In this document: piece by piece, positions 8,200 to 50,764 of the stretch
How the letters are laid out: every line of letters starts with the position of its first letter
Numbering within the stretch: position 1 is the stretch's first letter
Assembly: GCA_902547925.1 (NCBI GenBank)
Contig: CACCQD010000007.1
Coordinates: 1 to 64,000 of the forward strand
Reading direction: 5' to 3'
Length of the DNA stretch: 64,000 bases
From: an uncultured SAR116 cluster alpha proteobacterium
Lineage (GTDB): Bacteria > Pseudomonadota > Alphaproteobacteria > Puniceispirillales > Puniceispirillaceae
Made by a program: the position numbers and the translations under genes
The notes under the pieces: model-generated
What the model was told of the DNA's origin: nothing
Seen by the model: only the letters and a program-made list of their open reading frames with translations
Database searches by the model: none

Positions 8200-8996
8200 C
8201 CCGGATCAACCGGCAGGCCGAAATAATCGATGCGGCCACCCGCGGCGATCACTGCCATCGGCACCTCATCGCGCTTGTCGGCGATTGCCGAACCACCAGC
8301 AATCAGCATGACAGCCGGGCCATTCGCACGGGACGCCGTGATGGCTTGATTTATCGCGGCTGCCTCATGCGCCACAACGCGGCTGTCAACCAAGGCACAT
8401 CCAAGCTGGTTCAGACGCTGCTTTGCCGTCTGTTCAGTTGCCTTGAGGATTTTGTCAGCCATTCCGGGAATACTGGTCTGGATCAGGCAAAAGGACCGTG
8501 GATGCAACGCGTGAAATGAGATAACAGGCTCACCCGCCCCCAGCCCAATGACGGTGGCAACGGCCGTTTCAGCGGCGCTGTAGGGAATGATCGCCAGCGT
8601 GGCGATCAGATCGCCAGCCTCGACAAGTTGATTATGCTGCATGGTTGAGAGCGTGATACCCTCATCAACCATGTTGATATCACGCAGCCTCAGCCTGTCA
8701 ACGCGCAGCAAGCCACGTTGTGTTGCACATATATCGTCGCGTCCGATGGCGGCAACAGACAGCCTGACATTGGCAGGCATCATCGCTTTGGCGATCATAT
8801 CGACGGCTGCATCCTCGCCCAGATCACCATCTTCAGCCCTTGCAACGATAATATCATCAATCCCGTTTGCACGCAGGCGGGACAGATGATCCGATGTCAA
8901 GCAGGTGCCCTTGGCGATCCGCCCATCGGGCAAATAGACGGCGTGAACCAATATCGCGTCCAGACAATCAGACAATGCGCAGGGGCCAAATTTCAC
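8193..8996 (-). CDS. Molybdopterin-binding domain protein
   Basis: A 267-residue protein resembling the molybdopterin-binding half found fused to MocA-like transferases in many alphaproteobacteria. The N-terminal part (about residues 1-100, LSDCLDAILVHAV, GTCLTSDHLSRLRANG) corresponds to the AIR/MoeA-like start of that family, and the C-terminal half (residues about 170-267) to the MogA/MoeA pterin-binding fold with VMLIAGGSAIADKRDEVP. It probably presents the pterin cofactor to the transferase encoded by the next gene; here the two halves are separate but overlapping genes. The start is a GTG that overlaps the stop of xdhC (GTGA). Confidence 0.78.
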   Translation of the reverse strand: MKFGPCALSDCLDAILVHAVYLPDGRIAKGTCLTSDHLSRLRANGIDDIIVARAEDGDLGEDAAVDMIAKAMMPANVRLSVAAIGRDDICATQRGLLRVDRLRLRDINMVDEGITLSTMQHNQLVEAGDLIATLAIIPYSAAETAVATVIGLGAGEPVISFHALHPRSFCLIQTSIPGMADKILKATEQTAKQRLNQLGCALVDSRVVAHEAAAINQAITASRANGPAVMLIAGGSAIADKRDEVPMAVIAAGGRIDYFGLPVDPGW

Positions 8997-9991
8997 CCTG
9001 ACATCTCCCCCAGCATACGCTCGGCAGCGATCATTTCAGCCAGAATTGACACCGCAATCTCAGCCGGTTTTAGCGCTCCGATATTCAGTCCGGCTGGACC
9101 GTGAAGCCGATTCATTTCATCCGCGCTGATACCGGTTCCCTGCAGCCGCGCGCATCTGGCCGCATGGGTGCGGCGAGACCCAAGACAGGCGACATAAAAA
9201 GCATCGCTCGACAGCGCGGCGTGGAGCCCCGGATCGTCAATTTTCGGATCATGTGTTAGCGTGACAATTGCTGTGTGTGCATCGAGGCCAAGGGTGCGCA
9301 TTGCCTCATCCGGCCAGCCGGTGACGCATTCAATATCGGGGAACCGCGCAGCCGCCGTAAACACCGCACGGGGGTCGATGATTGTGACATCATAGCCAGC
9401 CAATTTTGCCATCGGGGCCAGAAACTGGCTGATATGGACACCGCCAACGATAACCAGACGCCGCGCCGGTGGCTGCACTAGATAAAACAGATTGGACGCC
9501 TCATCAAGATAGCTGGCCTCTGGCATCAAAGATGATGAGGATGGCTCAAGCGTTCCGGACGCGGCATTCAAGCAGAGCGTGACCGGACGCCGGGCCCGCA
9601 GGTCCGATGACATGCTGGCCAGAGTCTGTGGCGTGATCCCGCCAGATCCAACCGGCGATATCAGAACAGCAATCCGGCCACCGCAAGACAGGCCAACTTC
9701 CCACGCCGTTTCATCGGCAACGCCAAAATCCAGACGTTTGCCACCGCCGGTGGAGATTGCATCGCCGCCTGCCTCGATCACGGCGCCCTCAACACAACCG
9801 CCAGATACCGATCCCTCAACCAACATATCGTCCCGGATGATCATCACACTGCCAACAGGCCGCGGTGACGAACCCCATGTCTGGATGACAAAGGCAAGCG
9901 CCACACCACGACCGGCGGCATGCCACTCGGCCGCACTGGCGATCAATGAGCTGTCTGTAGGATTGCTGTCAAACATGGTCCTGCTGTCCAT
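8993..9991 (-). CDS. xdhC: XdhC/CoxI family molybdenum hydroxylase maturation protein
   Basis: A 332-residue member of the XdhC/CoxI family, which binds the molybdenum cofactor, helps sulfurate it and inserts it into xanthine-dehydrogenase or CO-dehydrogenase-type apoenzymes. The N-terminal domain shows TWGSSPRPVGS and SVSGGCVEGAV (about residues 38-75), including the conserved cysteine; the C-terminal domain is Rossmann-like (RRLVIVGGVHIS near residue 180, TLTHDPKIDDPGL, VACLGSRRTHAAR near residue 270, HGPAGLNIGA). It is the first gene of the accessory operon, divergent from coxS across about 250 bases, which suggests joint control with the enzyme subunits. Confidence 0.88.
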   Translation of the reverse strand: MDSRTMFDSNPTDSSLIASAAEWHAAGRGVALAFVIQTWGSSPRPVGSVMIIRDDMLVEGSVSGGCVEGAVIEAGGDAISTGGGKRLDFGVADETAWEVGLSCGGRIAVLISPVGSGGITPQTLASMSSDLRARRPVTLCLNAASGTLEPSSSSLMPEASYLDEASNLFYLVQPPARRLVIVGGVHISQFLAPMAKLAGYDVTIIDPRAVFTAAARFPDIECVTGWPDEAMRTLGLDAHTAIVTLTHDPKIDDPGLHAALSSDAFYVACLGSRRTHAARCARLQGTGISADEMNRLHGPAGLNIGALKPAEIAVSILAEMIAAERMLGEMSG

Positions 9992-10240
9992 CCTGCCTTA
10001 TCTTAATACCCATTGGCGGGTTATGCTAGCCACAGGTTGTGATATGCTGTGCCTCATGCAGACGTCTTAACCGCTGCGGCATTGTATAGTAGGTCATGGC
10101 ACGGGCCGCTGGTTGCATCTCGGCATGAATGAAAACAAATAAGGTTCCCAGAGGTTAATTGACCACAAGATTAAAGGTTTCAAATAGCGCATGATGCACA
10201 AAATGCCGAAGAGGGAAAAACGCAGCAAATGGGGGAAAAC

Positions 10241-10711
10241 ATGGCCAATGTCAGCTTTACGTTTAACGGCGGATCTGTCGGCGCAGAGGTGCCCGACAAC
10301 ACCTTGCTCGTTGAGTTCATCCGCGAGACACTTGGCAAAACTGGCACTCATATCGGGTGTGATACCAGCCAATGTGGCGCCTGTGTGATCCATATCAATG
10401 GCGAGTCGGTAAAATCCTGTACGATGCTGGCGGTCATGGCCAATGGCCAGGACGTCACAACAATCGAGGGTATTGCCGATGGCGATAAAATGCACCCCAT
10501 GCAGGCAGCCTTTCACGAGAATCACGGTCTGCAATGCGGTTTTTGCACCCCGGGCATGGTGATGAGTGCCATTGAGCTGGTGACCAGGAACCCGGCCGCA
10601 AGTGAGCAGGAAATTCGTGAGGGTCTGGAGGGCAATATCTGTCGCTGTACCGGGTATCACAACATTGTGAAATCAGTACAGGCAGCCGCACAGGTCATGG
10701 CAGAAAAGTGA
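10241..10711 (+). CDS. coxS: CO dehydrogenase-type [2Fe-2S] small subunit
   Basis: A 156-residue iron-sulfur subunit of the xanthine oxidase family. The N-terminal plant-type cluster ([13 protein letters not shown] and VKSC, about residues 40-62) and the C-terminal four-helix cluster (CGFCTPGM and CRCTGYHNI, about residues 101-140) are both complete. In CoxSML enzymes it carries electrons from the molybdenum centre to FAD. I use the ATG at 10241, behind a GGGGGA site; an in-frame ATG at 10229 is less well placed. The next gene downstream is coxM. No gene for the molybdenum-binding large subunit follows or precedes it in this window. Specificity for CO cannot be inferred from this subunit. Confidence 0.92.
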
Positions 10712-10776
10712 CATGTCGGCAAATCCGGCGGGCCATAAATGACGCACTGACCAAAGCTGCGGAATAGGAGGAAATC

Positions 10777-11562
10777 ATGTATCAGACAAACTATGTCAGA
10801 GCCTCAAGCATAGACGGTGCCGTGGCAAAACTGGACGATGAGGCAAAGCTTCTTGCCGGCGGCATGACCCTACTTCCAACAATGAAGCAACGTCTTGCCA
10901 GCCCGGAAACGCTGATTGACCTTGCTGATTGCGGCCTTGCCGGCATTGAGGATCTAGGTGACGCCCTCAAAATTGGGGCGATGACGCGTCATGTCGATGT
11001 CGAAACGTCAGAGATTGTGGCAAAGAGCATTCCCGCTCTGGCAGTGCTTGCAGCAAAAATTGGCGACCGGCAGGTGCGCAATCGTGGTACCATCGGCGGA
11101 TCAATCGCCAACAACGACCCATCGGCCTGCTATCCTTCGGCTGCTTTGGCACTTGATGCGACGATCCACACCAACAGCCGTGACATCGCCGCAGATGATT
11201 TTTTTGTGGGTATGTTTGAAACGGCGTTAGAGGAAAATGAAATCATCATCGCGATCAGCTTTTCAAAGCCGACCGCCGCCGCCTATGCCAAATTTCCCAA
11301 CCCGGCGTCACGCTATGCCATGGTTGGTGTGTTTGTTGCCAAAGGCGATTCGGTTAGCGTTGCCGTTACTGGTGCAGGTGAGGATGGTGTTTTCCGCCAT
11401 GCGGGGCTGGAGGCAGCACTCACCAGTTCCTTTTCGCCAGAGTCTGTTGAGCCTGTCACGGTGAGCGGCGATGAGATGATCAGCGATATGCACGCGGCAA
11501 GTGACTACCGCGCTCACCTCGTCAAGGAGATGACACGGCGGGCTGTGGCGGCATGTGGCTAG
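10777..11562 (+). CDS. coxM: CO dehydrogenase-type FAD-binding medium subunit
   Basis: A 261-residue flavoprotein subunit of the molybdenum hydroxylase family. The FAD-binding motifs LLAGGMTLLPTMK (about residues 27-39) and RQVRNRGTIGGSIANNDP (about residues 99-116) are intact, followed by the C-terminal CO dehydrogenase flavoprotein domain. It passes electrons from the iron-sulfur subunit to quinone. A strong AGGAGG ribosome-binding site precedes the ATG. It lies 65 bases after coxS. A terminator-like hairpin starts about 20 bases after its stop, indicating that the transcript ends here and that coxL is not further along the same unit. The protein is slightly shorter than the usual 280-290 residues. 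Confidence 0.9.
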   Translation: MYQTNYVRASSIDGAVAKLDDEAKLLAGGMTLLPTMKQRLASPETLIDLADCGLAGIEDLGDALKIGAMTRHVDVETSEIVAKSIPALAVLAAKIGDRQVRNRGTIGGSIANNDPSACYPSAALALDATIHTNSRDIAADDFFVGMFETALEENEIIIAISFSKPTAAAYAKFPNPASRYAMVGVFVAKGDSVSVAVTGAGEDGVFRHAGLEAALTSSFSPESVEPVTVSGDEMISDMHAASDYRAHLVKEMTRRAVAACG

Positions 11563-11582
11563 CCATGATCGGGATACAATTG

Positions 11583-11611
11583 AAAAAGCCGGATCAAAGA
11601 TCGCCTTTTTG
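11583..11611 (+). terminator. Probable Rho-independent terminator after coxM
   Basis: An imperfect stem-loop (AAAAAGCCGGATC, short AAA loop, GATCGCCTTTTT) ending in a run of five T residues lies just after the coxM stop codon. The stem has one bulge and one mismatch. It marks the end of the coxSM transcription unit. Confidence 0.5.
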
Positions 11612-11872
11612 CACCCATATTAGGGCCGAGGAAGGCAAGCCCCCATGGCACGACCCTGGCCAGAGATGCGCCTGTGCGCTAAGGCGCCAGCGTGCGACAG
11701 GATCTACGCGATTGCAGATTGACCCGAAGCCCTTGGGCATGCCAGCTCAAATATGCCAGTTGCGGCGATGCCGTGATGATTTTTTTGTTGAAGTGGTGGA
11801 TAAGTGGCGGTCAACTAATGAGGAGACCACGTTAACGGATAGTGGCATCTCTGTTCTGTCTGGCAGGTTTTT
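11612..11872. other. Intergenic region, no gene seen
   Basis: About 260 bases between the coxM terminator and the MBL-fold gene. I looked for the start of a coxL gene or a remnant of one and found none. The only open frame across it lacks recognisable protein features. The region should hold the promoter of the MBL/cyclic-nucleotide-binding pair, but no clear boxes are visible. Confidence 0.4.
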
Positions 11873-12670
11873 ATGAGAGTTACATTTCATGGTGTTCGCG
11901 GATCCATTTCGGCATCTGGCGCTGACTTTTCCGAATATGGTGGACACACCATATGCACTGAGATTATGGCTGATGCTGCCCAAATCATCATTGATGCAGG
12001 AAGCGGATTTCAGAATGTTGCGCTAGCCGATGACCGGCCCGTTGTCGTTCTGCTAAGCCATTTTCATCATGATCACATTCAGGGACTTGGCTTCAACCCG
12101 AGCCTTTTTGCTGGCCCGTCTGACGTTTTCATAAGCTCTGCACTGTGTTCACATGACGCCACACATGATCAACTGCAGCGATACTATAGCGGCAGATATT
12201 TTCCGATCAAGCTGCTATCTGAAATTTCCAGACTGAGGGTCGTGTCCTTTGCCGAAGTGCAGTCGATTTTTGCCCGTGATCTGACGCTTGAGACTTATGG
12301 TTTGAATCATCCGGGAGGTTCCGCCGCATATGGTGTTGCGACAACAAACGCCAAACTCTGCTGCCTGCTCGACAATGAATATAAGGCCAGCCAGCTCGAC
12401 AGCCTGTGTGGGCTCACCGATGATGCAGATTTGACAATCTGGGACGGTATGTTCACGGCGGATGAGTTGCCGCAGTTCAAAGGTTGGGGGCATTCATCAA
12501 TGGAGCAGGGTGTGGCGTTTATGGAAAATTCCAATTGCCGGCGCCTTGCCATTGCGCATCATGCGCCGCACCGAACGGATACTCAGCTAAATGAGATACA
12601 GAAGACGATGGGCGATCCTGCGACTTTTATCGTCAAAGCAAACCATACAGAAATTTTAACCCGGGATTAG
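11873..12670 (+). CDS. MBL-fold metallo-hydrolase, candidate cyclic-nucleotide phosphodiesterase
   Basis: A 265-residue metallo-beta-lactamase-fold hydrolase. It begins with MRVTFHGVRGSIS, as in PhnP- and RNase Z-like branches, and carries the dinuclear metal motif SHFHHDHIQG (about residues 62-71), a further histidine in LNHPGGSAAY, an aspartate near WDGMF and a terminal histidine in AIAHHAPHR. It has no signal peptide, so it is cytoplasmic. Four bases separate it from a cyclic-nucleotide-binding protein gene, and both converge on three class III cyclases. That context suggests cyclic-nucleotide hydrolysis, as in class II phosphodiesterases, but the substrate is an inference from neighbours alone. 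Confidence 0.75.
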   Translation: MRVTFHGVRGSISASGADFSEYGGHTICTEIMADAAQIIIDAGSGFQNVALADDRPVVVLLSHFHHDHIQGLGFNPSLFAGPSDVFISSALCSHDATHDQLQRYYSGRYFPIKLLSEISRLRVVSFAEVQSIFARDLTLETYGLNHPGGSAAYGVATTNAKLCCLLDNEYKASQLDSLCGLTDDADLTIWDGMFTADELPQFKGWGHSSMEQGVAFMENSNCRRLAIAHHAPHRTDTQLNEIQKTMGDPATFIVKANHTEILTRD

Positions 12671-12674
12671 AGCC

Positions 12675-13016
12675 ATGAAAAAAGAGACTCTCTCGCAACA
12701 TCGCACCATTTTCAAAGCTGGCGATACAGCGGGAAACATCTTTCTCCTTGTGCGCGGTTCAGTGGGCATTTTTCTGCCCAACAATGAAACCAAGACGCCC
12801 GATTTCGTGATCGGCGCAAATGAAATCTTTGGCGAAATGGGCGTCATTGATGATGAGCTGCGTATGGCGGATGCCAGATGTATGGAAGAGTGTGACATCA
12901 TCGCGGTATCAAAAGATGAGTTCAATACCTATTTGGACGAGTCGAACATCTTTGTCCGAGGAGTGGTGGGCATTCTCTCCGAGCGCTTGCGAAAAATTCA
13001 GAAATCATCCCGTTAA
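12675..13016 (+). CDS. Stand-alone cyclic nucleotide-binding domain protein
   Basis: A 113-residue single-domain protein of the CRP/CAP_ED fold. The phosphate-binding cassette is visible as FGEMGVIDDELRMADARC (about residues 54-71), keeping the glutamate that contacts the ribose and the arginine that contacts the cyclic phosphate. There is no DNA-binding helix-turn-helix, kinase or channel domain, so it would act as a small receptor or regulatory subunit. It starts 4 bases after the MBL-fold gene, suggesting that the pair forms a two-chain enzyme in which nucleotide binding controls hydrolysis. It faces the cyclase cluster, whose product is its likely ligand. Confidence 0.82.
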   Translation: MKKETLSQHRTIFKAGDTAGNIFLLVRGSVGIFLPNNETKTPDFVIGANEIFGEMGVIDDELRMADARCMEECDIIAVSKDEFNTYLDESNIFVRGVVGILSERLRKIQKSSR

Positions 13017-13068
13017 CAGCCCAGAGACTGCACGGGGGAGTGCCCTGAACCAAGCCTGACATTGCGGG

Positions 13069-14226
13069 CTAGTTGACACGTTCCCACCAGCGATCAATTT
13101 CCGGCACGTCAGAGATATCAACGAGCTGGCCCAGGAGAGGTGTCAGAACATTCACATCCAGTCTTGCCGCCTCAGCAAGTACCCGCACGGGTGGTTCAAA
13201 CCAATCATGCATCGACAAGGTGAACATGCCCCAATGGATGGGAACAAGCAGTTGGCCCTTGATATCCAAAACCGCCTGTACGGCTTCTTCGGGCATATTG
13301 TGAACGTGCCGCCAGCGCGTGTTGTACTGACCTGAATCCATGAAAACCAGATCGACAGAGCCATAGCGTTCACCAATCTGCCGGTAATGATCCGCATAGC
13401 CGGAGTCACCACTGAAATAGACCGACTGGTCGGGTGATTTGATCAGCCATGACGCCCATAATGATCGCTTTTCCCTGTATGGGCCCCGCCGTCCAGAAAA
13501 ATGCTGCGATGGGGTGCAGATCAGAGTCAACCCATCAAGCTGGGTCTCCTCCCACCAATCAAGCTCAGTAATTTTTTCCGCTGAAACGCCCCAATGTTCG
13601 AGATGCGCGCCCAATCCCAACGGCACGACAAAGCTGATGTCATCATCGCGCAGCTGCTTGATTGTTTCCATGTCGAGATGGTCATAATGATCATGTGAAA
13701 CCACGACAATGTCAATTTTTGGCAGCGATGCGAGGTCGATCACCGGCGGCTGAAACCGCTTCACAACAAGGCTTACGGGTGACGCCGCATTGGAAAATAT
13801 CGGATCAAACAAAATCACCTTGCCGCCCATGGACACAAGGATCGTCGAATGGCCCAGCCAGACAAATTTGATTGTGTTGGAGCTCTCATGAAAATCATAA
13901 GGCAGGGGAATTTTGCTCTCCGGCATCAAGTCTTCAGGCCGGGTCTGATTGCCGTTGAAGAAGAAATTGTTATTCCAGTTCTCCCCCGGATTATCCCAGA
14001 AACCGGGCCCCGTAAGGATAGGTTTTTGCTGAAGATTGACGAATTTGTCATTAGCCGCATCATAATTGTCAGATTTCTGAATCTTCAGATAGCTGTCGCC
14101 GGATGGCAACGCGCCGAATTGCTCACATCCAGATAAATGGAAGAACACACCAAACAAGCCTGCGATCAGGACAAAGGTTGCGCGGCGCATCGTCTTTGCC
14201 TTCTTTTTTCTGCGTCGACTCACCAT
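13069..14226 (-). CDS. NAPE-PLD-like MBL-fold lipoprotein
   Basis: A 385-residue metallo-hydrolase of the NAPE-PLD/RomA branch of the MBL fold. After a basic start there is a hydrophobic segment ending in a lipobox (HLSGC, about residues 30-34), so the protein is probably a membrane-anchored periplasmic lipoprotein. The fold motifs are FVWLGHSTILVSMGGKVILFDP (split here as FVWLGHSTIL and GKVILFDP, about residues 123-145), the metal site VVSHDHYDHLD (about residues 177-187), YFSGDSGYA and PIHWGMFTLSMHDW near residue 340. Relatives cleave N-acyl-phosphatidylethanolamine or related phosphodiesters. It is the last gene of the minus-strand cyclase run, 36 bases after the 7TM cyclase gene. Confidence 0.82.
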   Translation of the reverse strand: MVSRRRKKKAKTMRRATFVLIAGLFGVFFHLSGCEQFGALPSGDSYLKIQKSDNYDAANDKFVNLQQKPILTGPGFWDNPGENWNNNFFFNGNQTRPEDLMPESKIPLPYDFHESSNTIKFVWLGHSTILVSMGGKVILFDPIFSNAASPVSLVVKRFQPPVIDLASLPKIDIVVVSHDHYDHLDMETIKQLRDDDISFVVPLGLGAHLEHWGVSAEKITELDWWEETQLDGLTLICTPSQHFSGRRGPYREKRSLWASWLIKSPDQSVYFSGDSGYADHYRQIGERYGSVDLVFMDSGQYNTRWRHVHNMPEEAVQAVLDIKGQLLVPIHWGMFTLSMHDWFEPPVRVLAEAARLDVNVLTPLLGQLVDISDVPEIDRWWERVN

Positions 14227-14262
14227 TACTCCACCCTCGCTCCGAAACAGACTAAACGTCGA

Positions 14263-16533
14263 TCAATTCGTCTCCAGCCTCTCAACCCCGTCCCACGTCT
14301 CGGGGTTCCAACCACCTTCCAGTAGTTTCTCGCACCGTTCCACATACAGCCTTGCAACATTATCATTTTCGCTCTCGGACAAAACGGCTTTGAACAGGTC
14401 CCGAGCCTCGGCAAATTTCTGACCCTTGTAAAGCGACATGGCCTCGCTGAACTGTGCCAGACTGCTGCGCTTCAATCTGGCAACCTCGGGTGGCTCACCA
14501 TCAATCACCTCAAAAATTCTAACCGGCCTGTCCTTGCCTTTTACGACAACACTGTCGATTAAACGGCAGTCAAATTTGCCCTTATCAAGGTGCCTGTATG
14601 TTTGTTCAGAGATAATGACCTTGGATGCGTAACGTTTTGTGAGCCCCTCCAAACGCGAGGCCAGATTGACAGCATCGCTGATAACAGACCCCTCCATCCG
14701 ATCCGCCTCACCCAGCGTGCCAAGCATCATCCTGCCAGTATTGATCCCAACGCCGACATTGATCCGTGGTTTGCCGGCACGATCCTGCTCTTCATTGTAG
14801 CGATATAGTTCCCTTTGCATCTCGACTGCAGCAAGGACGGCATCATTTGCCGACAGGGGAAACAGCGCCATAACCCCGTCACCCATGAATTTGTCAATAT
14901 AGCCCCGGCGCGCCCTGATGATAGGGCCCATGCGACTGAGATACGCATTCACAAAAGCAAAATTTTCGCTGGGGGACATCGTTTCGGAGATAGAGGTGAA
15001 AGATCTTATGTCTGAAAAAACGATACTCATCTCGACATCGACCTGATCACCCAACTGCACATCAAGGATGCTGTCCCGGCCCAGATTCTGTAGCAATTGC
15101 GATGGCACAAAACGCTGGTAGGCCTCGGTAACTCTTACCTGCTGCGCCAGCGCCAGCGCCTTCATATCATTCAGCTGCTGCGCAACAGCAAACCCAAAAG
15201 TGACAAACATGGCAAGAAAGAGGATCCCCACCGCCGTCGACACAACGAACCAGAACACCCAGGAAAAATCAAAAACGAGATATGCAAACCCGGAGATTGG
15301 CACCGCCAAAAAGGGAAGCGAGAACGATATCAGCAGAAATTTTGCATAGGTGCTGCCGCGCCGCCACAGAACAAATGACAATATCGCGGACGAAAGAAGC
15401 AGAAGGACAAAGGGAATCATGATGCTGTCAATTTTGACGATACCAGGCCCGGAACGATCTGGCGGGTATGCAACAAGATCCAGATTTGCATCGTTAGGCC
15501 AGCCAAGCGTCAAATAGAGATTTAGCACTACCATGCTGGCAAAAAAGAAAAGCGCCGCCTGAAACAGCTTGTGAATTCTTGGAAAGGTCTGTTTCAGATT
15601 GAGGGAGTTCTGAAAGAATCTGGTAAGAAACAGAAACATCAATGACAGGGAAGCAAGGGTAAATTCACTGTTCACCAGCCAACCGGGAAGCTTCATCACC
15701 CAGCCAATCGACAGGGAAGTAGAGGAAGCGAACGCTATCTGGAAAAGGCTTGCAGAGAGCCATAGATAGTTGCCCCGTGACACCAGAAACATGAATAGAT
15801 AATAGAGCCCAAAAGCCAGCGAGATGGCAATGATCGCTACATTCGCAACGAGCCCAAGAAACTGCAGCGAGTGAATGTCCTTCCACGGGCCGATGGTCAT
15901 CCTATCGAGGCCGTTTACCTTGCTCATAAACCGATCAAAGGGCTTGTTGCGGAAATAATTGTAAATTGTGGTGATCTCACCCGCCGGCATGATGACCCGG
16001 TGGTGCGCGAGGAGTCTGCCATCGCCAATCCAATCACCTTCCCGCTGTTTCCAGTAGGGATATTCGGTGAAACCATTGCTGTTAACCGTGAAAAGTTTCT
16101 TTTCGCTGTTGTAATTATGCTCAATCCCTATTTCATCGGTTGAGATTTTGTTCTCGACCCGAAACCGCACCCAATACCCATCGACTAGAGATTGGTCCGC
16201 GATGAGGGTTTTGGTCCAGTCAGCAACACTGAGTGTTTGGAGAGACACGGTATGATTATAACCCTCCAGGAACTCCAGATGAGTGCTTGGGATTGTTTCA
16301 AGCCCTTCATCTGATATAATGAAAACGTCAGCATGAATGGCATTTTCATCAGCACGCGCCTCCGATAGTGACAATGTAAATAAGAGGGGAATAGAGGGAA
16401 AAAGCGAGAGTGAGAGAGGAGATGAGCCAAGTAAGAGCGCGACCGCCAGCAACGGAACCCGCGGATATCTGAAACTGCAAAAATTGCAAATGTTTCGAAT
16501 CCATACAGAAGCTCGGCTCACAAAAAAATCCAT
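14263..16533 (-). CDS. Receptor-type class III adenylate/guanylate cyclase with 7TM-DISM sensor
   Basis: A 756-residue membrane cyclase (794 if the in-frame ATG at 16647 is used). A long signal sequence ends near SEARA. An extracytoplasmic 7TMR-DISM-type sensor domain follows (about residues 65-225), then about seven membrane segments (about residues 235-445), and a class III cyclase domain (about residues 480-660). The catalytic set is complete: metal aspartates in VFSDIRSF and FMGDGVMALF, base-selecting YIDKF and SVISDAVN, and the transition-state Asn/Arg pair in NLASRLEG. A short TPR-like tail (about residues 675-750) closes it. DISM receptors usually sense small ligands. The start at 16533 gives the better signal peptide; the one at 16647 overlaps the upstream gene and would be coupled to it. 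Confidence 0.85.
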   Translation of the reverse strand: MDFFVSRASVWIRNICNFCSFRYPRVPLLAVALLLGSSPLSLSLFPSIPLLFTLSLSEARADENAIHADVFIISDEGLETIPSTHLEFLEGYNHTVSLQTLSVADWTKTLIADQSLVDGYWVRFRVENKISTDEIGIEHNYNSEKKLFTVNSNGFTEYPYWKQREGDWIGDGRLLAHHRVIMPAGEITTIYNYFRNKPFDRFMSKVNGLDRMTIGPWKDIHSLQFLGLVANVAIIAISLAFGLYYLFMFLVSRGNYLWLSASLFQIAFASSTSLSIGWVMKLPGWLVNSEFTLASLSLMFLFLTRFFQNSLNLKQTFPRIHKLFQAALFFFASMVVLNLYLTLGWPNDANLDLVAYPPDRSGPGIVKIDSIMIPFVLLLLSSAILSFVLWRRGSTYAKFLLISFSLPFLAVPISGFAYLVFDFSWVFWFVVSTAVGILFLAMFVTFGFAVAQQLNDMKALALAQQVRVTEAYQRFVPSQLLQNLGRDSILDVQLGDQVDVEMSIVFSDIRSFTSISETMSPSENFAFVNAYLSRMGPIIRARRGYIDKFMGDGVMALFPLSANDAVLAAVEMQRELYRYNEEQDRAGKPRINVGVGINTGRMMLGTLGEADRMEGSVISDAVNLASRLEGLTKRYASKVIISEQTYRHLDKGKFDCRLIDSVVVKGKDRPVRIFEVIDGEPPEVARLKRSSLAQFSEAMSLYKGQKFAEARDLFKAVLSESENDNVARLYVERCEKLLEGGWNPETWDGVERLETN

Positions 16534-16621
16534 TCCCTGACCATTTGGGCCAAATTCACAGCCTGAAGGCGATACCTGTTTTGTTCTTTCCAGCAAAGTG
16601 TCTGCTTTTACAAAGAGTGCC

Positions 16622-18385
16622 TCACGCCGGCATTCCAGCCTTTTCAAGCCCGCTCATGACGTAGTCTTTGGCGAGTGTCGGAACGACCTTTTCATAATCG
16701 CGCAAGGTCTTGATCTCTGGTCGCTTTTCGAGAAACACGGCTAAGGATTTTTCCGCCTCTTCCATATTACCTAGGTGCGCCTCAACAGCCGCCAGCCACC
16801 CATACCATCGACTATGGCCACTTTTGTCCCTAAAGAGTGTTACCCACCGTTTCGCATTTTCAGCATCTTTCATCCCCAGATAAATAAGCGGCAAAAAGCC
16901 CTCATATTTGCTTCGTCCTGACGGGTCCAAATCAATCGCCTTTTGGAGATAACTCAGGGCTTCATCATACCTACCAAAACTGGTGATTGCCATCGCAAGA
17001 TCTTGATTGGCCGCAGAATTGCTCGGGTTCAATTCAAGAGCCAGCTCGGCAAATTCAACCCGCTTTTCATAATCACCGCGCAGATTGAAAGAGCGGCTCA
17101 GCATAATCACGGCTTCTGGGTTATTAGGATTTAAATCATATGCCTTTTGCGACAGACGATGAAAAAGCTGTTCATGCTCACTGCGCTTTCCAGGTTCTCT
17201 CTGATCAAAAATCCAATTTGTCAATGAGCGACATTGCAGCGTGTAGGCTTCACAAAAATTTGGGTCTAGTGCGACCGCGGATTCACATTTTGACGCAATT
17301 TCGGGATATTTTGGTTCAAAGTCGTTAAAGAGGCTCAATGCCTGTAGATATAAATCCCAGGCAGACAGATCAGTAGTTTTTTTGGACAACGACCCACGGC
17401 TATGCTCCTGGCCTTTCAGGGCAGGCACAATCAGCACCGCAACGGATTGGGACACCTCATCCTGAACCTCGAAGATATCATCCAACGGACGGTCCCATCG
17501 CTGTGACCAGATTTGTTGATCGTCAATCGCATCAATCAAATTAGCGGTGATCCTGACCTTATTGCCACCTTTGCGAATGCTTCCCGTCACCAGGTAGCGG
17601 GCACCCATTTCCTGAGCGATCATTGATGATTTCAGGCTGGAATCCTTATAAGTGAAGCTGGTGTTACGGGCAATGACGGGGAAGGTTTTCCAGCTTGAGA
17701 GGTTGGCTATGATATCTTCAGAAATGCCATCCGCAAAATAATCCTGATCAGGGTCGTTGCTTTGATTCACAAACGGCAGCACAGCGATTGTCGGCGGCTT
17801 TGATAATGCACCTTTTGCATCGGCTTTCATTTCAGGCGCATTTTTGGCACGCTCGCTGGTGCCGTCCAACATCATGTCATAGGCCCTAACCATCGTGTTC
17901 TTGACCTGTTGATCACCGATATCTGTGAAATTCAATTCGACCTTTTGGCTCACGAAATCATGAACACCCTTTGACAGGCACACACTATCCGGTTGCGCCA
18001 GCGCCTCCAACCGGGCGGCGACATTGACACCATCACCATAAAGATTCTGATCTTCGACAATCACATCACCCATGTTGATGCCGATACGAAATCTCATTTG
18101 CGCGTCTTCGTTATCCAGGGATGCGTTCCTTTGCTTGATTAGCTTTTGAAATTCTGATGCACAAATCACCGCAGACACAGCGCTTTGAAACTCCGCAAGG
18201 ACAGAATCTCCAGCAGTGTTAAAAATTCTGCCGCCATGTTCTTCAAAAAGATCGTCTAAAATCTCTTTGCAAGCTCTAAAACTGCGGAGCGTTTGCTCCT
18301 CATTTTTTTCCATGAGTTTGCTGAAACCAACAACATCCGTCACAAAGATGACTGCTATTTTTCTAACTATGTTGTCCTCTGACAT
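16622..18385 (-). CDS. Soluble class III cyclase with TolB-like domain and TPR repeats
   Basis: A 587-residue protein with three parts. The N-terminal class III cyclase domain (about residues 5-170) has both metal aspartates (VTDVVGFSK, NTAGDSVLAEF) and the catalytic Asn/Arg (LYGDGVNVAARLEAL). A TolB-N-like domain (COG5616 type, about residues 200-330) follows, with IAVLPFVNQSNDPDQDYFADG and a VTGSIRKGGNKVRI strand. The rest is TPR repeats (about residues 350-575). Unlike its neighbour and the copy at 48.9 kb it shows no membrane segment between the cyclase and the TolB-like part, so it should be cytosolic. I use the ATG at 18385 (MSEDN), which aligns with the MSDDQ start of the paralogue upstream. 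It overlaps or adjoins the downstream 7TM cyclase gene. Confidence 0.88.
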   Translation of the reverse strand: MSEDNIVRKIAVIFVTDVVGFSKLMEKNEEQTLRSFRACKEILDDLFEEHGGRIFNTAGDSVLAEFQSAVSAVICASEFQKLIKQRNASLDNEDAQMRFRIGINMGDVIVEDQNLYGDGVNVAARLEALAQPDSVCLSKGVHDFVSQKVELNFTDIGDQQVKNTMVRAYDMMLDGTSERAKNAPEMKADAKGALSKPPTIAVLPFVNQSNDPDQDYFADGISEDIIANLSSWKTFPVIARNTSFTYKDSSLKSSMIAQEMGARYLVTGSIRKGGNKVRITANLIDAIDDQQIWSQRWDRPLDDIFEVQDEVSQSVAVLIVPALKGQEHSRGSLSKKTTDLSAWDLYLQALSLFNDFEPKYPEIASKCESAVALDPNFCEAYTLQCRSLTNWIFDQREPGKRSEHEQLFHRLSQKAYDLNPNNPEAVIMLSRSFNLRGDYEKRVEFAELALELNPSNSAANQDLAMAITSFGRYDEALSYLQKAIDLDPSGRSKYEGFLPLIYLGMKDAENAKRWVTLFRDKSGHSRWYGWLAAVEAHLGNMEEAEKSLAVFLEKRPEIKTLRDYEKVVPTLAKDYVMSGLEKAGMPA

Positions 18386-18457
18386 CAAATCAAATACCCC
18401 GCATCCAATATGGAATTGAAAATCCTTTTTTCTTATTCTGGTTACATCCCACACTTA

Positions 18458-21400
18458 TCAATTTAATTTGGGCAAGCCCAAGTCTGTCAATTCGATAAAA
18501 ATTTTATCCAAAAACTCTTTTTCGTTTATTGCCGCCATTTGTTGATAAAAATTGCCTTGATTCACTGGATTTGCAAAATCGAGTTGATCATAAATATATC
18601 TTCTGGCTTTTTCTCTATCCCCTATCATCACTTCGGCATAGGCGAGCAGCGTGTAGACCATCGAGTTTTTACGAGGCAGGCTAAGCTCCCCGAGTTCCAC
18701 AACCTCATCAAGACGATTAGCGAGCAAATATGCGGACATCAGGTTTTTCGTAATCCTTAAATCTGTATCATTTGGCGTCATTTTGAGAGATTTTTCTAAA
18801 GCTGATATTCCGGGTGTTAACTCGCCACAATTAGTAAAAGCTAAACCCAAAAACTGATAATCTTGGCCAGAGCGAGCAAGTGGTTCTAATTGCCCCGCGT
18901 GGTAAAGGGCTTTTTCGCAATTTTTGAAAATATTTGCCTCCACAAATGCTCTTGCTGCATGAGATACCGCGTCAGGCTTTATCTCCAATGCACGATCCGA
19001 GAACCTTATTATATCAGCCATGTCCTGTTGTTTATCCTCAGACAAACCAACAAATAATTTCACTGCACGGTGCCAAAGTGACATATTCATTTTCAAGTGC
19101 TCAGAGGCGTCTGACTTCAGAAGTTCACGTAGCAGAGTGTCGCCACGATACCACCCATCCTTTGTCAAGGTTCGCAAATGTCTTCTAGTGTTGAGCATGA
19201 TTGTATGTGCAGTCGCACTCTCCTCATGAAAAGAAGGCTGCTCACCCATCACGACGTTTATCTGCAAAGCAGATAGAATAGCGTCACCAACTCGGTCCTG
19301 AGCCTCGAACAAATTCTCATCCAAAAAATCAAACTTTTTGGCCCATCGAACCCGCTCCGTGGTGACATCGATCAGTTCTGCCGTCACCCTGATCGCTTTT
19401 CCTGATTGCTGGACAGTCCCCCCTACGACATAGTCCACATCATAAAGTTCTTTGATCTCTTGATTGCTTAGACCTGCGTCAACTACATGATAGCTGGTAC
19501 TGCTAGACAACGTCACAATCTCTTCATAGCGTTGCAGTCCGATGAGAAGTGTTTCGGTGACCGAGTCACTGATCGAGAAATCATTGCCGGTGGTTGTGTT
19601 GAGATTTTTTAGAGGCCTGACCAGTACAACAGGTACATTTGCGATAAATTTATCGGCTTTAGTTATTGGTGACTGGGATACTCGGACTTTGTCATTTTTT
19701 TTACATAAATTACCACAGGCCTTGGCTGCTATTTCTAAAGCCTCTAGAGAAATAGCATCAAAACCAGCAAGATCAGGTGACACTCTCTTTGCGGCATCAA
19801 AATCATCGTTAAGCAAATAAAGATGTGCCATCAAGCGTCGCGTCGTTTTGTCCCTCAAACCCTTCGCGACAAAATTCTCAGCAACCTTGATCGCATTAGC
19901 AATATCGCCCGACAACATATGCGCTGCAATGATTAGGGTCTTTATTTCGTCATTCTTAGCATTGGGCTCCAACCTCATGGCAACATTCAGCGTGTCGATA
20001 GCCTCTTTTTCCATGCCACATTGAATATAGACATACCCCGCTTGGCGCATCCGATTGGTGTTCTTGCCAGCCTCGACAAATTTGTTGATATGGTGGCTGG
20101 CCTTTTTACAATCCTGGTCGATGAACAACGCAGTCAAGCCAACCAAATTTTGCGCATACCCCGGACTTACCGCCATAGCCTTTTTCATGTATCCATCAAG
20201 ATTAGATCGTTCTCCCACCACATCTGTGCTTAGTTTTCTGTTCAATCTCGCAAAACTCATCCACCCTGGCACCAGATGATAATAGACGTTGGTTACGGGC
20301 AAATTTTGAAGAAGTTCACGCTCTAGCTTTTCGGCCCTCAAGAAGCTTTCTTGTGTTCTCTTGAGGAAATTTGAGCGCCAGTTCATAAAGGTAAGAAAAT
20401 TCTCCGCGCTGGCGAAAAGCTCTCGGTCAAGCGCCGCATCCTCACCCATCGTGACTTTAGTCATTGTCGAAGCTAAGACTTCATTGGCTACATTATCCTG
20501 AATTACGAAATCATCTGAAATTTCAAAATCCAAATTCTGGGACCAGATGATTTTTTCTGACAGATTGTCGATCAGACTGAAAGTGACCCTCGTGGATTGA
20601 GCTGAAATTTGAACAGTGCCTGAGACTTGATATTTAATGTTCAGCTTGCGCATCAAATCCATGTCAGGGCGATCATTCGATAGAATGTCACTCCTGAATT
20701 CTTCGGGAGGCAGACTGACCTCATCATAATTATTCAGCTTGGTCTGAACAGCGCGCGTTACCCCCTCGGACAAGCTTTCCGCCTTTTGACCCCCACCAAG
20801 AGTTTTGAACTCATTGACCATCATCTTGATTGCCTGGGAGTCTGAAAATAGTTGCTCTGGCTCCTGCTGCGATGGGGCAAGAGACAAATAGAACAGACCC
20901 GCACCGATCAGCGTAAAAAAAATAACCGCCGCAGCAACCATTGGTAATTTGGAGGAAAGCGGTTTTGACAAACTGCGCTTCTGAGACGGGTCCAGCACAA
21001 CGTCATAGACATGAAACCTGTTCTCTTTGACCTGCTGCACGCCGAGATCTTTGAAGACCAGATCCGTCTTGGCCTGAACAAATTCATAAACCGGTTTGGA
21101 AATGCTGATTCCATTTGGCTGCGCCAGAGCCTCGAGCCGTGCGGCAATATTAACCCCATCTCCATATAGATTTTCGTCTTCAATGACGACGTCACCCATA
21201 TTTATGCCGATGCGAAACTCCATGATTTCAGCTGTGGCTGAGGATTGGTTTCGCTGTTTTAAAACTCTCTGGAAATCAGCTGCGCATTCCACCGCCAAAA
21301 CGGCGCTGGAAAATTCAGCAAGAACAGAGTCACCGGCAGTGTTGAAAATACGGCCATCATATTGTTTGAAGGATTTATCCAAAAGCCTGCGGCAGGCCCG

Positions 21401-21508
21401 AAGGTTCTTGATTGTCTGGGCTTCGTCCTGCTCCATTGATTTGCTGTAACCAACAACATCCGTCGCAAAAATTACCGCAATCTTTCTGTCAATCTGGTCG
21501 TCAGACAT
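18458..21508 (-). CDS. Membrane class III cyclase with duplicated TolB-like/TPR sensor module
   Basis: A 1016-residue protein. The N-terminal cytoplasmic cyclase domain (about residues 5-175) is complete: ATDVVGYSK, NTAGDSVLAEF and LYGDGVNIAARLEAL. One membrane segment (about residues 185-210, AAAVIFFTLIGAGLFYLSLA) places the remainder in the periplasm. That remainder contains two successive copies of a TolB/FlgO-like plus TPR module: copy one about residues 220-620 (YQVSGTVQISAQSTRVTFSL) and copy two about residues 640-1010 (YVVGGTVQQSGKAIRVTAEL). The two copies share the order of strands and the IWSQ/RWAK and VIQDNVAN/EAQDRVGD positions. It is the first gene of the cyclase operon; an AGGA site precedes the ATG. 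The ligand is unknown. Confidence 0.88.
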   Translation of the reverse strand: MSDDQIDRKIAVIFATDVVGYSKSMEQDEAQTIKNLRACRRLLDKSFKQYDGRIFNTAGDSVLAEFSSAVLAVECAADFQRVLKQRNQSSATAEIMEFRIGINMGDVVIEDENLYGDGVNIAARLEALAQPNGISISKPVYEFVQAKTDLVFKDLGVQQVKENRFHVYDVVLDPSQKRSLSKPLSSKLPMVAAAVIFFTLIGAGLFYLSLAPSQQEPEQLFSDSQAIKMMVNEFKTLGGGQKAESLSEGVTRAVQTKLNNYDEVSLPPEEFRSDILSNDRPDMDLMRKLNIKYQVSGTVQISAQSTRVTFSLIDNLSEKIIWSQNLDFEISDDFVIQDNVANEVLASTMTKVTMGEDAALDRELFASAENFLTFMNWRSNFLKRTQESFLRAEKLERELLQNLPVTNVYYHLVPGWMSFARLNRKLSTDVVGERSNLDGYMKKAMAVSPGYAQNLVGLTALFIDQDCKKASHHINKFVEAGKNTNRMRQAGYVYIQCGMEKEAIDTLNVAMRLEPNAKNDEIKTLIIAAHMLSGDIANAIKVAENFVAKGLRDKTTRRLMAHLYLLNDDFDAAKRVSPDLAGFDAISLEALEIAAKACGNLCKKNDKVRVSQSPITKADKFIANVPVVLVRPLKNLNTTTGNDFSISDSVTETLLIGLQRYEEIVTLSSSTSYHVVDAGLSNQEIKELYDVDYVVGGTVQQSGKAIRVTAELIDVTTERVRWAKKFDFLDENLFEAQDRVGDAILSALQINVVMGEQPSFHEESATAHTIMLNTRRHLRTLTKDGWYRGDTLLRELLKSDASEHLKMNMSLWHRAVKLFVGLSEDKQQDMADIIRFSDRALEIKPDAVSHAARAFVEANIFKNCEKALYHAGQLEPLARSGQDYQFLGLAFTNCGELTPGISALEKSLKMTPNDTDLRITKNLMSAYLLANRLDEVVELGELSLPRKNSMVYTLLAYAEVMIGDREKARRYIYDQLDFANPVNQGNFYQQMAAINEKEFLDKIFIELTDLGLPKLN

Positions 21509-48925: not shown

Positions 48926-50764
48926 ATGCCGTCAGAACGACTTAATCGGAAAATCACTGTTATTTTTGCTACTGACGTCGCTGCCTACAGCAAACATGTA
49001 GAGCAAGACGAAAGCCTTACAATAAAAACATATTCTGAGCGTGAAGTGGTTTTACTGAAGCTAATCAAGGATTTTCGTGGGCGTGTATTCAATACTGCGG
49101 GTGACTCTGTCCTTGCAGAATTTGCCAGTGCTGTTGATGCAGTTGAGTGCGCAGCAGCTTTTCAAGTCCGAATGGTTGGGATCAACAGCCAGGCAGATGC
49201 CAAGTGTAAATTGGAATTCCGCATCGGAATCAACATGGGTGATGTTGTTCAGAAAGACGGCAACTTACTTGGTGATGGTGTGAACATTGCGGCACGGCTT
49301 GAGGCACTTTCACAACCAAACGGAGTCTCTATCTCCAAATCAATTCATGACCTCGTAGCCCCTAAAACCAATCTTAATTTCAATGATCTTGGCATCCAAA
49401 AAATCAAGGAGAACGAATTTCACGCCTTTGACCTGATGATGAAACACTCAAAGAGGCGGAGCCGAAAATACGTTAAAGGTGTAAATGTTGGGACCCTGTT
49501 TGCCGCAATTGCGATCCCAGCAATAAGCATTGCTGGCGCCATATTCTTTATTTTATCTTATGAGAAGTCTGCAGAAAATCGGCAAAAGGCCGTTTTAACC
49601 TCCGTCCCATTGATTCTTGTGGAGCCGATAGCAGTTTCGGAAAACCAAAAGGAATTGCAGAAACCGTTCACTGAGAGTGTCATTTCTGGTCTTTCAGATT
49701 TTCGTGGCATCAATGTGCTCTCCGGAAACAACAGTTTTTTCATCTCTAACTCAAACCTGAGCGATACGCAGATCGCCGAAAAATTCAATGTCGACTACAT
49801 TGTGCGCGGCATGATCCAGACCTACGGCGACAAATCTAGGATGAACATTAGCCTTGCTGACCTTGAGCAGAACAAAGTGATCTGGTCGGACCAAATTGAT
49901 TTCAATTTTGAGGAAATTTTTGAACTGCAAGATCGTGTAAATGACTCAATCCTGTCTCAGCTACAGGTTGAGGCTGTTGCTGGCGACATTGTAAATGACT
50001 TACGCGAATATGCGAAAAATTTTGAATTTCTGACACTGTATCTAAACTGGAGCGCAGAACTTCAGAAGTGGAATCCAGAAAGCCATGCAAGAGCTGAGGC
50101 GTTCCTGAGTGAGATGAACGAACTTGATGCAGATAACCTGCTGCTTCATAGCGCCGCCGGATGGCAAACCTTCCAAAGGGTTGTATTTGGGCTCTCAACA
50201 AGCTTTGAAAGTGATGTTGAAACAATGAAAACTCGCAATGCACTCGCTATTCAAACAATGGGGCGTGGGGAAGATTTTGCGCAACGCGCAATGTTCGAAT
50301 ACTTCTTTTTCTCGAAAACCTGTGAGGCTGCTCTTGCAGATGTAGACGCCTCTTTAAAGCGCGGGCAAAACGTTCGTGTTTACCAAATTACCGGCGCTAT
50401 TTACGCAGCCTGTGACCGGGTCGAAGAAGCTATTATCTACAATCGAAAGGCGCTTGCTGCCACCCCCAATGATATCGGGTGGTTCCTCACTGTGGACTTG
50501 GTGTCCAACCTTTGGAAACTGGACCGATATGAAGAGATAAAAGAAATGATTGAAGCTAAAATTGACGCTGCTGATATGGATCCACGAATTATGGCAATTT
50601 TTGCAGTTGTTGAACAAAAAGCGGGAAACAAAAAACGAGCTAAAGAACTTATTGCAAGAGCCAAAATCAATGGACTTGTGCAAGATAGAATTAAAACATG
50701 GCTTCGAGGCCAACCCGCCGCATTCAGGCTAATTGAACAAATCAACGAAATCGATACTTTCTAG
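48926..50764 (+). CDS. Membrane class III cyclase with TolB-like domain and TPR, cassette-borne
   Basis: A 612-residue protein. The N-terminal cyclase domain (about residues 5-170) is complete: ATDVAAYSKHV, NTAGDSVLAEF and LLGDGVNIAARLEAL. A basic linker leads to one membrane segment (about residues 190-212, LFAAIAIPAISIAGAIFFIL). The outer part has a TolB/FlgO-like domain (about residues 225-360, YIVRGMIQTYGDKSRMNISL) and TPR-like helices (about residues 370-600). It has the same architecture as the first cyclase of the 16.6-21.5 kb cluster with only one sensor module. It stands alone between scars S1 and S2, is AT-rich compared with the sugar island, and AAGGA precedes its ATG. Product (cAMP or cGMP) is undetermined. 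Confidence 0.88.
   Translation: MPSERLNRKITVIFATDVAAYSKHVEQDESLTIKTYSEREVVLLKLIKDFRGRVFNTAGDSVLAEFASAVDAVECAAAFQVRMVGINSQADAKCKLEFRIGINMGDVVQKDGNLLGDGVNIAARLEALSQPNGVSISKSIHDLVAPKTNLNFNDLGIQKIKENEFHAFDLMMKHSKRRSRKYVKGVNVGTLFAAIAIPAISIAGAIFFILSYEKSAENRQKAVLTSVPLILVEPIAVSENQKELQKPFTESVISGLSDFRGINVLSGNNSFFISNSNLSDTQIAEKFNVDYIVRGMIQTYGDKSRMNISLADLEQNKVIWSDQIDFNFEEIFELQDRVNDSILSQLQVEAVAGDIVNDLREYAKNFEFLTLYLNWSAELQKWNPESHARAEAFLSEMNELDADNLLLHSAAGWQTFQRVVFGLSTSFESDVETMKTRNALAIQTMGRGEDFAQRAMFEYFFFSKTCEAALADVDASLKRGQNVRVYQITGAIYAACDRVEEAIIYNRKALAATPNDIGWFLTVDLVSNLWKLDRYEEIKEMIEAKIDAADMDPRIMAIFAVVEQKAGNKKRAKELIARAKINGLVQDRIKTWLRGQPAAFRLIEQINEIDTF

Follow-up and report, generated by a model that had tools for sequence, protein, structure and literature searches.

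Metallo-β-lactamase (MBL) fold phosphodiesterases controlled by cyclic-nucleotide-binding (CNB) domains are known as single polypeptides, the Dictyostelium proteins GbpA and GbpB, which are class IIb enzymes activated through their CNB domains (PMC11988041). The 64,000-nucleotide stretch analyzed here (the window; positions 1 to 64,000 of contig CACCQD010000007.1, from an uncultured SAR116 cluster alphaproteobacterium) carries at 11873–21508 a six-gene locus in which an MBL-fold hydrolase gene and a gene for a stand-alone CNB protein face a run of genes that includes three class III cyclases, suggestive of a new, two-gene bacterial version of such enzymes. As in GbpA and GbpB, whose CNBs are C-terminal to the MBL part, the CNB gene is downstream of the MBL gene, a likeness of domain design. 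However, GbpA and GbpB are each one eukaryotic chain with two CNBs, whereas the present system consists of two bacterial genes, a single CNB and an enzyme that is predicted. No report of a two-gene bacterial MBL-CNB version was found in the open-access literature, of which our coverage was incomplete; the earlier sequence-only reading had suggested that the pair could be a two-subunit phosphodiesterase of a kind not known as described, and the underlying design has a single-chain precedent in GbpA and GbpB.

Other described systems share one or the other half of the pair. Bacillus subtilis YhfI, Mycobacterium tuberculosis Rv1339 and Corynebacterium glutamicum CpdA have the MBL fold, the [T/S]HXHXDH motif and the metal ligands, and have no exosite arm (PMC9293780, PMC9117128). 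The available portions of these reports mention no paired CNB protein, and YhfI is only about 20% identical to the MBL described here, which also scores below the cut-off of the family model NF041851. The anti-Pycsar protein Apyc1 is likewise an MBL-fold phosphodiesterase of cyclic nucleoside monophosphates (cNMPs), but its structural similarity to this MBL is lower (Z 20), it serves phage immune evasion and it has no CNB partner (PMC9117128). Bdellovibrio Bd1971 contains the CNB that is most similar to ours by structure and, among bacterial proteins, by sequence, and this CNB controls a phosphodiesterase; its catalytic domain, however, is a fused EAL domain acting on cyclic di-GMP (c-di-GMP), in contrast to the separate MBL found here. 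Finally, RNase Z (ZiPD) is closest to the MBL in overall fold by Z-score and shares its metal motif and a similar GHS C-terminal motif, but this MBL lacks the tRNA exosite arm, is far below the TIGR02651 cut-off and is linked to cyclases.

For bacteria that have numerous class III cyclases, it is often unclear how the cyclic AMP (cAMP) signal is switched off. A compact MBL-CNB pair that recurs beside many cyclase types offers a directly testable off-switch candidate in two groups that abound in the ocean, SAR116 and the marine Rhodobacterales. We suggest, with slightly less than an even chance of being right, that the two proteins form a split, self-limiting and probably cAMP-controlled class II-type phosphodiesterase. 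If they are indeed one enzyme, bacteria would have a two-part equivalent of the GbpA/GbpB design of slime moulds, and their cAMP turnover would be subject to a further layer of regulation, by feedback.

The MBL-CNB gene pair

All six open reading frames (ORFs) of the locus were present in an ORF check and a Pfam scan. The two that form the pair are:

11873..12670, plus strand: MBL-fold hydrolase, 265 amino acids; PF12706, 35.6 bits (cut-off 27)
12675..13016, plus strand: stand-alone CNB protein, 113 amino acids; PF00027, 56.1 bits (cut-off 27.5)

Four bases separate the end of the MBL stop codon (12670) from the CNB ATG (12675), and the two ORFs are in different frames. There are 53 bases between the CNB stop and the end of the minus-strand run, so that the two units are convergent, and ORF coordinates and Pfam matches agree with the two-gene unit that had been read from the sequence.

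The metal ligands of the MBL (H63, H65, D67, H68, H146, D167 and H229) are invariant in 59 relatives, and the sequence SHFHHDH at residues 62–68 fits [T/S]HXHXDH, the signature of atypical class II phosphodiesterases (PMC9293780), which the bridging Asp matches as well. By sequence profile the closest solved relative is YhfI (6kns), which aligns without insertion over residues 1–256 of the MBL and 7–244 of YhfI (E 1.2e-14) and strongly prefers cAMP and cyclic GMP (cGMP) over cCMP and cUMP (PMC9117128). An AlphaFold2 model of the MBL (predicted local distance difference test score 94.8) matches YhfI with a Z-score of 25.7 over 229 residues at 2.7 Å; the Z-scores for PhnP-type proteins, yeast PDE1 and Apyc1 are 23–24, 20.1 and 20.0, respectively. 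Based on profile and model, the MBL is a probable cyclic-nucleotide phosphodiesterase. In family terms it classes by sequence as a class II-type relative and, because its score is below the cut-off, not as a member of the NF041851 equivalog. Identity as a tRNase Z was considered and ruled out by a missing exosite arm and a low family score, although the overall fold is closest to that of RNase Z. Only 21 residues separate H146 (motif III) from D167 (motif IV), while Escherichia coli RNase Z aligns in pieces only and has some 45 additional residues in the interval from profile position 159 to 203, where YhfI has none. We take this offset to be the tRNA exosite arm. The RNase Z model TIGR02651 gave 37.6 bits, for the C-terminal part only, relative to a cut-off of 293.

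The CNB protein has its own start and consists of one complete domain, with no DNA-binding or other domain attached. E54, which contacts the ribose, and R63, which contacts the phosphate, are invariant in 39 relatives. The Bd1971 sensor is its nearest bacterial sequence match (E 2.2e-23) and the top structural match of its model (Z 15.9, root-mean-square deviation 2.1, 108 aligned residues); Bd1971 itself is a c-di-GMP phosphodiesterase that is turned on about 8-fold by cAMP or cGMP (PMC6717892). Glu58, Met59 and Arg67 of Bd1971 align with E54, M55 and R63, and a nearly invariant Met occupies the position of the guanine-contacting Ser68; because of this replacement, the CNB should fit cAMP better than cGMP. 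Sequence and model together suggest that the protein is a putative cNMP receptor. A role in Pycsar defence was ruled out, as the similarity of cyclases and CNB to that system is generic only and the CNB carries no TIR or transmembrane (TM) effector domain.

The arrangement recurs in other species. Our sample consisted of 56 non-redundant MBLs from SAR116 and marine Rhodobacterales, 48 of them with at least 1.5 kb on both sides. In 37 of these 48 loci a CNB lies within 300 bp of the MBL (36 by ORF pass, and L032 by tblastn), and 33 of the 36 CNBs found in the ORF pass are on the same strand as the MBL; at L129, tblastn located the CNB 1.1 kb away. MBL relatives were identified in 69 of the 136 genomes that represent the SAR116 order and in marine Rhodobacterales, and a phylum-wide set of 397 genomes gave more distant relatives in 89. 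The SAR116 and Rhodobacterales MBLs group in a single clade with strong support (100/100; 53 rows); because 39 of these rows have an adjoining CNB, the pairing looks old within the clade and lost or moved in a few branches. A search with a concatenated profile in a single frame found no MBL-CNB single-chain fusion in 398 genomes, and the long open frames that were inspected as fusion candidates proved to be receiver-MBL fusions or reading-frame extensions. In one SAR116 genus (L063, L065, L066 and L070), diverged MBL and CNB genes are on opposite strands and overlap tail-to-tail by 8–9 bases.

Class III cyclases beside the pair

The host genome is partial (1.67 Mb, 58% complete, 66 contigs) and encodes seven class III cyclases and nine CNB domains; three of the seven cyclases are inside the 10 kb of the locus (chance P about 1e-5). 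Across the sample, a class III cyclase was found within 4 kb of the MBL in 23 of 36 loci versus 2.9% expected, an excess of about 20-fold, and for a distance of 8 kb the count was 19 of 26 versus 5.1% expected, where the expected density was taken from SAR116-order genomes only and the sample also includes Rhodobacterales. At the level of whole genomes, class III cyclases occur in 65 of 69 MBL-bearing and 42 of 67 MBL-less members of the 136 genomes of the order (Fisher P 6e-6, a value that, like the enrichments, ignores shared ancestry). The co-occurrence search that the sequence-only reading had put forward as a check thus showed a conserved pair and strong over-representation of cyclases near it.

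Cyclase architecture varies while the pair persists, including DISM-like, TPR, GAF-GAF-PAS, ferredoxin-membrane, hydrolase-fused and receiver-linked forms, the domain names outside the window being read from the sequences and not from a domain scan. Seven loci of one SAR116 family (L049, L056, L058, L059, L107, L123 and L143) carry, in this order, the MBL, the CNB, a PAS-repeat hybrid histidine kinase of 1300–2080 amino acids, a single-domain receiver and a receiver-cyclase, which looks like an entire phosphorelay leading to a cyclase. Membrane cyclases near the pair in L035 (4882–6576), L036 (4899–6920) and L046 (2770–4548) have what looks like a 2Fe-2S ferredoxin domain inserted after the membrane part and ahead of the cyclase domain.

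The association extends beyond the SAR116 and Rhodobacterales clade. In L193, L206 and L208, judged from gene content to be probably Hyphomicrobiales, an ABC-transporter-like long gene, a CNB of a different type and, downstream of it, the MBL are arranged in a row, no more than 10 kb from a class III cyclase. In another proteobacterial family (L184, L186 and L188), the start of a receiver-MBL fusion overlaps or closely follows a cyclase-AAA-TPR gene, and a Rhizobium plasmid encodes an MBL about 4 kb from an annotated cyclase, with no CNB. Because of these three groups of loci, several branches of the wider MBL family can be said to accompany class III cyclases and input domains. A GFA-family gene adjoins the MBL both in L046 (7787–8149, SAR116, read from sequence) and in L224 (7973–8347, Rhizobium, annotated), possibly by chance. 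In four genomes of the genus (G000:C20:12343-12870 on the minus strand, G073, G074 and G076) the best cyclase match holds one in-frame TAA inside the matched region, which may simply be a domain-end stop.

Proposed function and rival explanations

We propose that the MBL and CNB genes would constitute a two-gene cyclic-nucleotide shut-off module. Class III cyclases, both nearby and distant, would raise the signal, most likely cAMP, and the CNB would bind the same nucleotide and act on the MBL in the manner of a distinct regulatory subunit, in all likelihood turning it on at high signal levels, such that the signal would limit itself. The MBL, acting as a binuclear-metal class II-type phosphodiesterase, would hydrolyze 3′,5′-cyclic mononucleotides, again most likely cAMP. 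A more ambitious form of this proposal, a two-subunit bacterial cyclic-nucleotide phosphodiesterase that is switched on by the CNB and exchangeable among the class III cyclases of abundant ocean bacteria, is more doubtful, and we advance it only tentatively.

A cyclic-nucleotide link of the pair is favored by its conservation, by the cyclase excess and by relatives, motifs and structure. Several observations weigh against the proposed module. In roughly one locus out of four (e.g. L038, L047, L086 and L104) the surrounding genes are unrelated and the nearest 8 kb contain no cyclase, which goes part of the way towards what the sequence-only reading had named as a refutation. In one sub-clade (L039, L042, L050, L132 and L144) the MBL is beside a cyclase with no adjoining CNB of this type, and in L046 and L048 the CNB is about 2 kb from the MBL; MBL-cyclase loci without an adjoining CNB imply that the CNB is not obligatory. 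The SAR116-only baseline and the neglect of shared ancestry also detract from the enrichment values. As for the enzyme, the MBL scores 37.7 bits over residues 1–254 for NF041851, for which the cut-off is 400, and its model ranks RNase Z (Z 28.4, 242 residues, 2.5 Å) slightly over YhfI.

The main rival explanation, which we consider unlikely but worth serious attention, retains the MBL as a cyclic-nucleotide phosphodiesterase and makes the CNB an independent cAMP effector or adaptor with other partners, sharing the operon by virtue of cAMP signaling. MBL-cyclase loci in which the CNB is absent or distant, among them the five of the sub-clade, fit it as well, and the CNB, a whole domain, is translated from a start of its own; moreover, true subunits are often fused, yet a search of about 400 genomes gave no MBL-CNB fusion. 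What this explanation accommodates less readily is that throughout a large clade the two genes are closely spaced and mostly co-directional, tens of bases apart or overlapping by as much, along with the second pairing of an MBL with a different CNB type in the Hyphomicrobiales loci and the direct control of phosphodiesterases by CNBs in GbpA/GbpB and Bd1971.

The MBL might instead act on another phosphodiester or ester, such as RNA, a cyclic sugar phosphate (the type of substrate that PhnP uses) or some other metabolite, with the CNB adding cAMP control as in Bd1971. We regard this as improbable. The MBL is close in fold to RNase Z and PhnP-type enzymes too, its NCBIfam scores include weak ones to both, and some pairs have no cyclase nearby; but these scores are far under the RNase Z and PhnP cut-offs, the exosite arm of RNase Z is missing, the nearest sequence relative, YhfI, is a tested cAMP/cGMP enzyme, and the linkage to cyclases persists at MBL loci that have no CNB. 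A general clustering of signaling genes, with the MBL and CNB as unrelated neighbors of the cyclases, is disfavored and very improbable: SAR116 genomes do hold several cyclases and CNB domains, as the counts for the partial host genome illustrate, but the cyclase excess within 4 kb holds for both SAR116 and Rhodobacterales, even as the architecture of the cyclases changes.

The three cyclases, the lipoprotein and flanking genes

The minus-strand run convergent to the pair comprises four genes:

13069..14226, minus strand: MBL-fold lipoprotein with a UlaG/NAPE-PLD-like domain, 385 amino acids, LSGC lipobox; PF12706, 159.1 bits
14263..16647, minus strand: membrane class III cyclase, 7TMR-DISM-like, 794 amino acids; PF00211, 78.3 bits
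16622..18454, minus strand: soluble class III cyclase with TolB_N and TPR, 610 amino acids; PF00211, 53.4 bits, and TolB_N, 27.5 bits
18458..21508, minus strand: class III cyclase with one TM helix, 1016 amino acids; PF00211, 44.3 bits, TolB_N, 29.0 bits, and FlgO, 27.0 bits

All three cyclases exceed the PF00211 cut-off, in keeping with the sequence-only reading of three class III cyclases of different topology, while its 7TM-DISM label for the membrane cyclase corresponds to a sub-threshold match (7TMR-DISM_7TM, 21.2 bits, cut-off 29). This protein has an N-terminal extracytoplasmic part, a membrane part and a C-terminal cyclase domain, with six hydrophobic segments, one of them N-terminal, and it probably starts at an ATG near 16533 and not at the TTG at 16647, which overlaps the upstream gene. 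In alignment with CyaB (3r5g), the metal Asp, Lys, Asn and Arg positions are retained, and the base-specifying positions, canonically Lys and Asp/Thr, are K and S, i.e. present or conservatively replaced.

The 1016-residue cyclase has an N-terminal cyclase domain (E 3e-37 versus 3mr7), a helix at 190–208 and two C-terminal TolB_N/FlgO+TPR units. Because these units are C-terminal to the single helix and the cyclase domain is N-terminal to it, the sensors are most likely periplasmic, which makes "periplasmic double sensor" a fair description. The 610-residue cyclase is of the same design with one TolB_N+TPR unit, and no TM segment was found in it, in agreement with its description as soluble. 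In both TPR cyclases the base-specifying Lys and Asp are replaced by Asn in the alignment with 3mr7, and orthologs retain N/N or H/N at these positions (L031, L034, L046 and L048); judging from these residues, the nucleotide preference of both enzymes may be unusual.

The lipoprotein likewise proved to be as first described, with its lipobox and a strong match to PF12706, and its scores for NF001911 (65.8 bits) and NF008688 (50.3 bits) are both under the cut-offs. It adjoins the DISM-like cyclase in L031–L035 and another cyclase in L076, and its role may be to produce or eliminate a signal in the envelope to which the cyclase responds.

Upstream of the pair, at 8993–11876, are genes for an XdhC/CoxI-type protein and a CoxM-like FAD subunit; a 107-residue ORF between CoxM and the MBL (11553–11876) matches no known family and is perhaps not a real gene. 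Elsewhere in the window, a fourth class III cyclase of 612 amino acids (48926–50764, plus strand), with an N-terminal cyclase domain and one TM helix at 191–209, is surrounded by sugar and acid metabolism genes.

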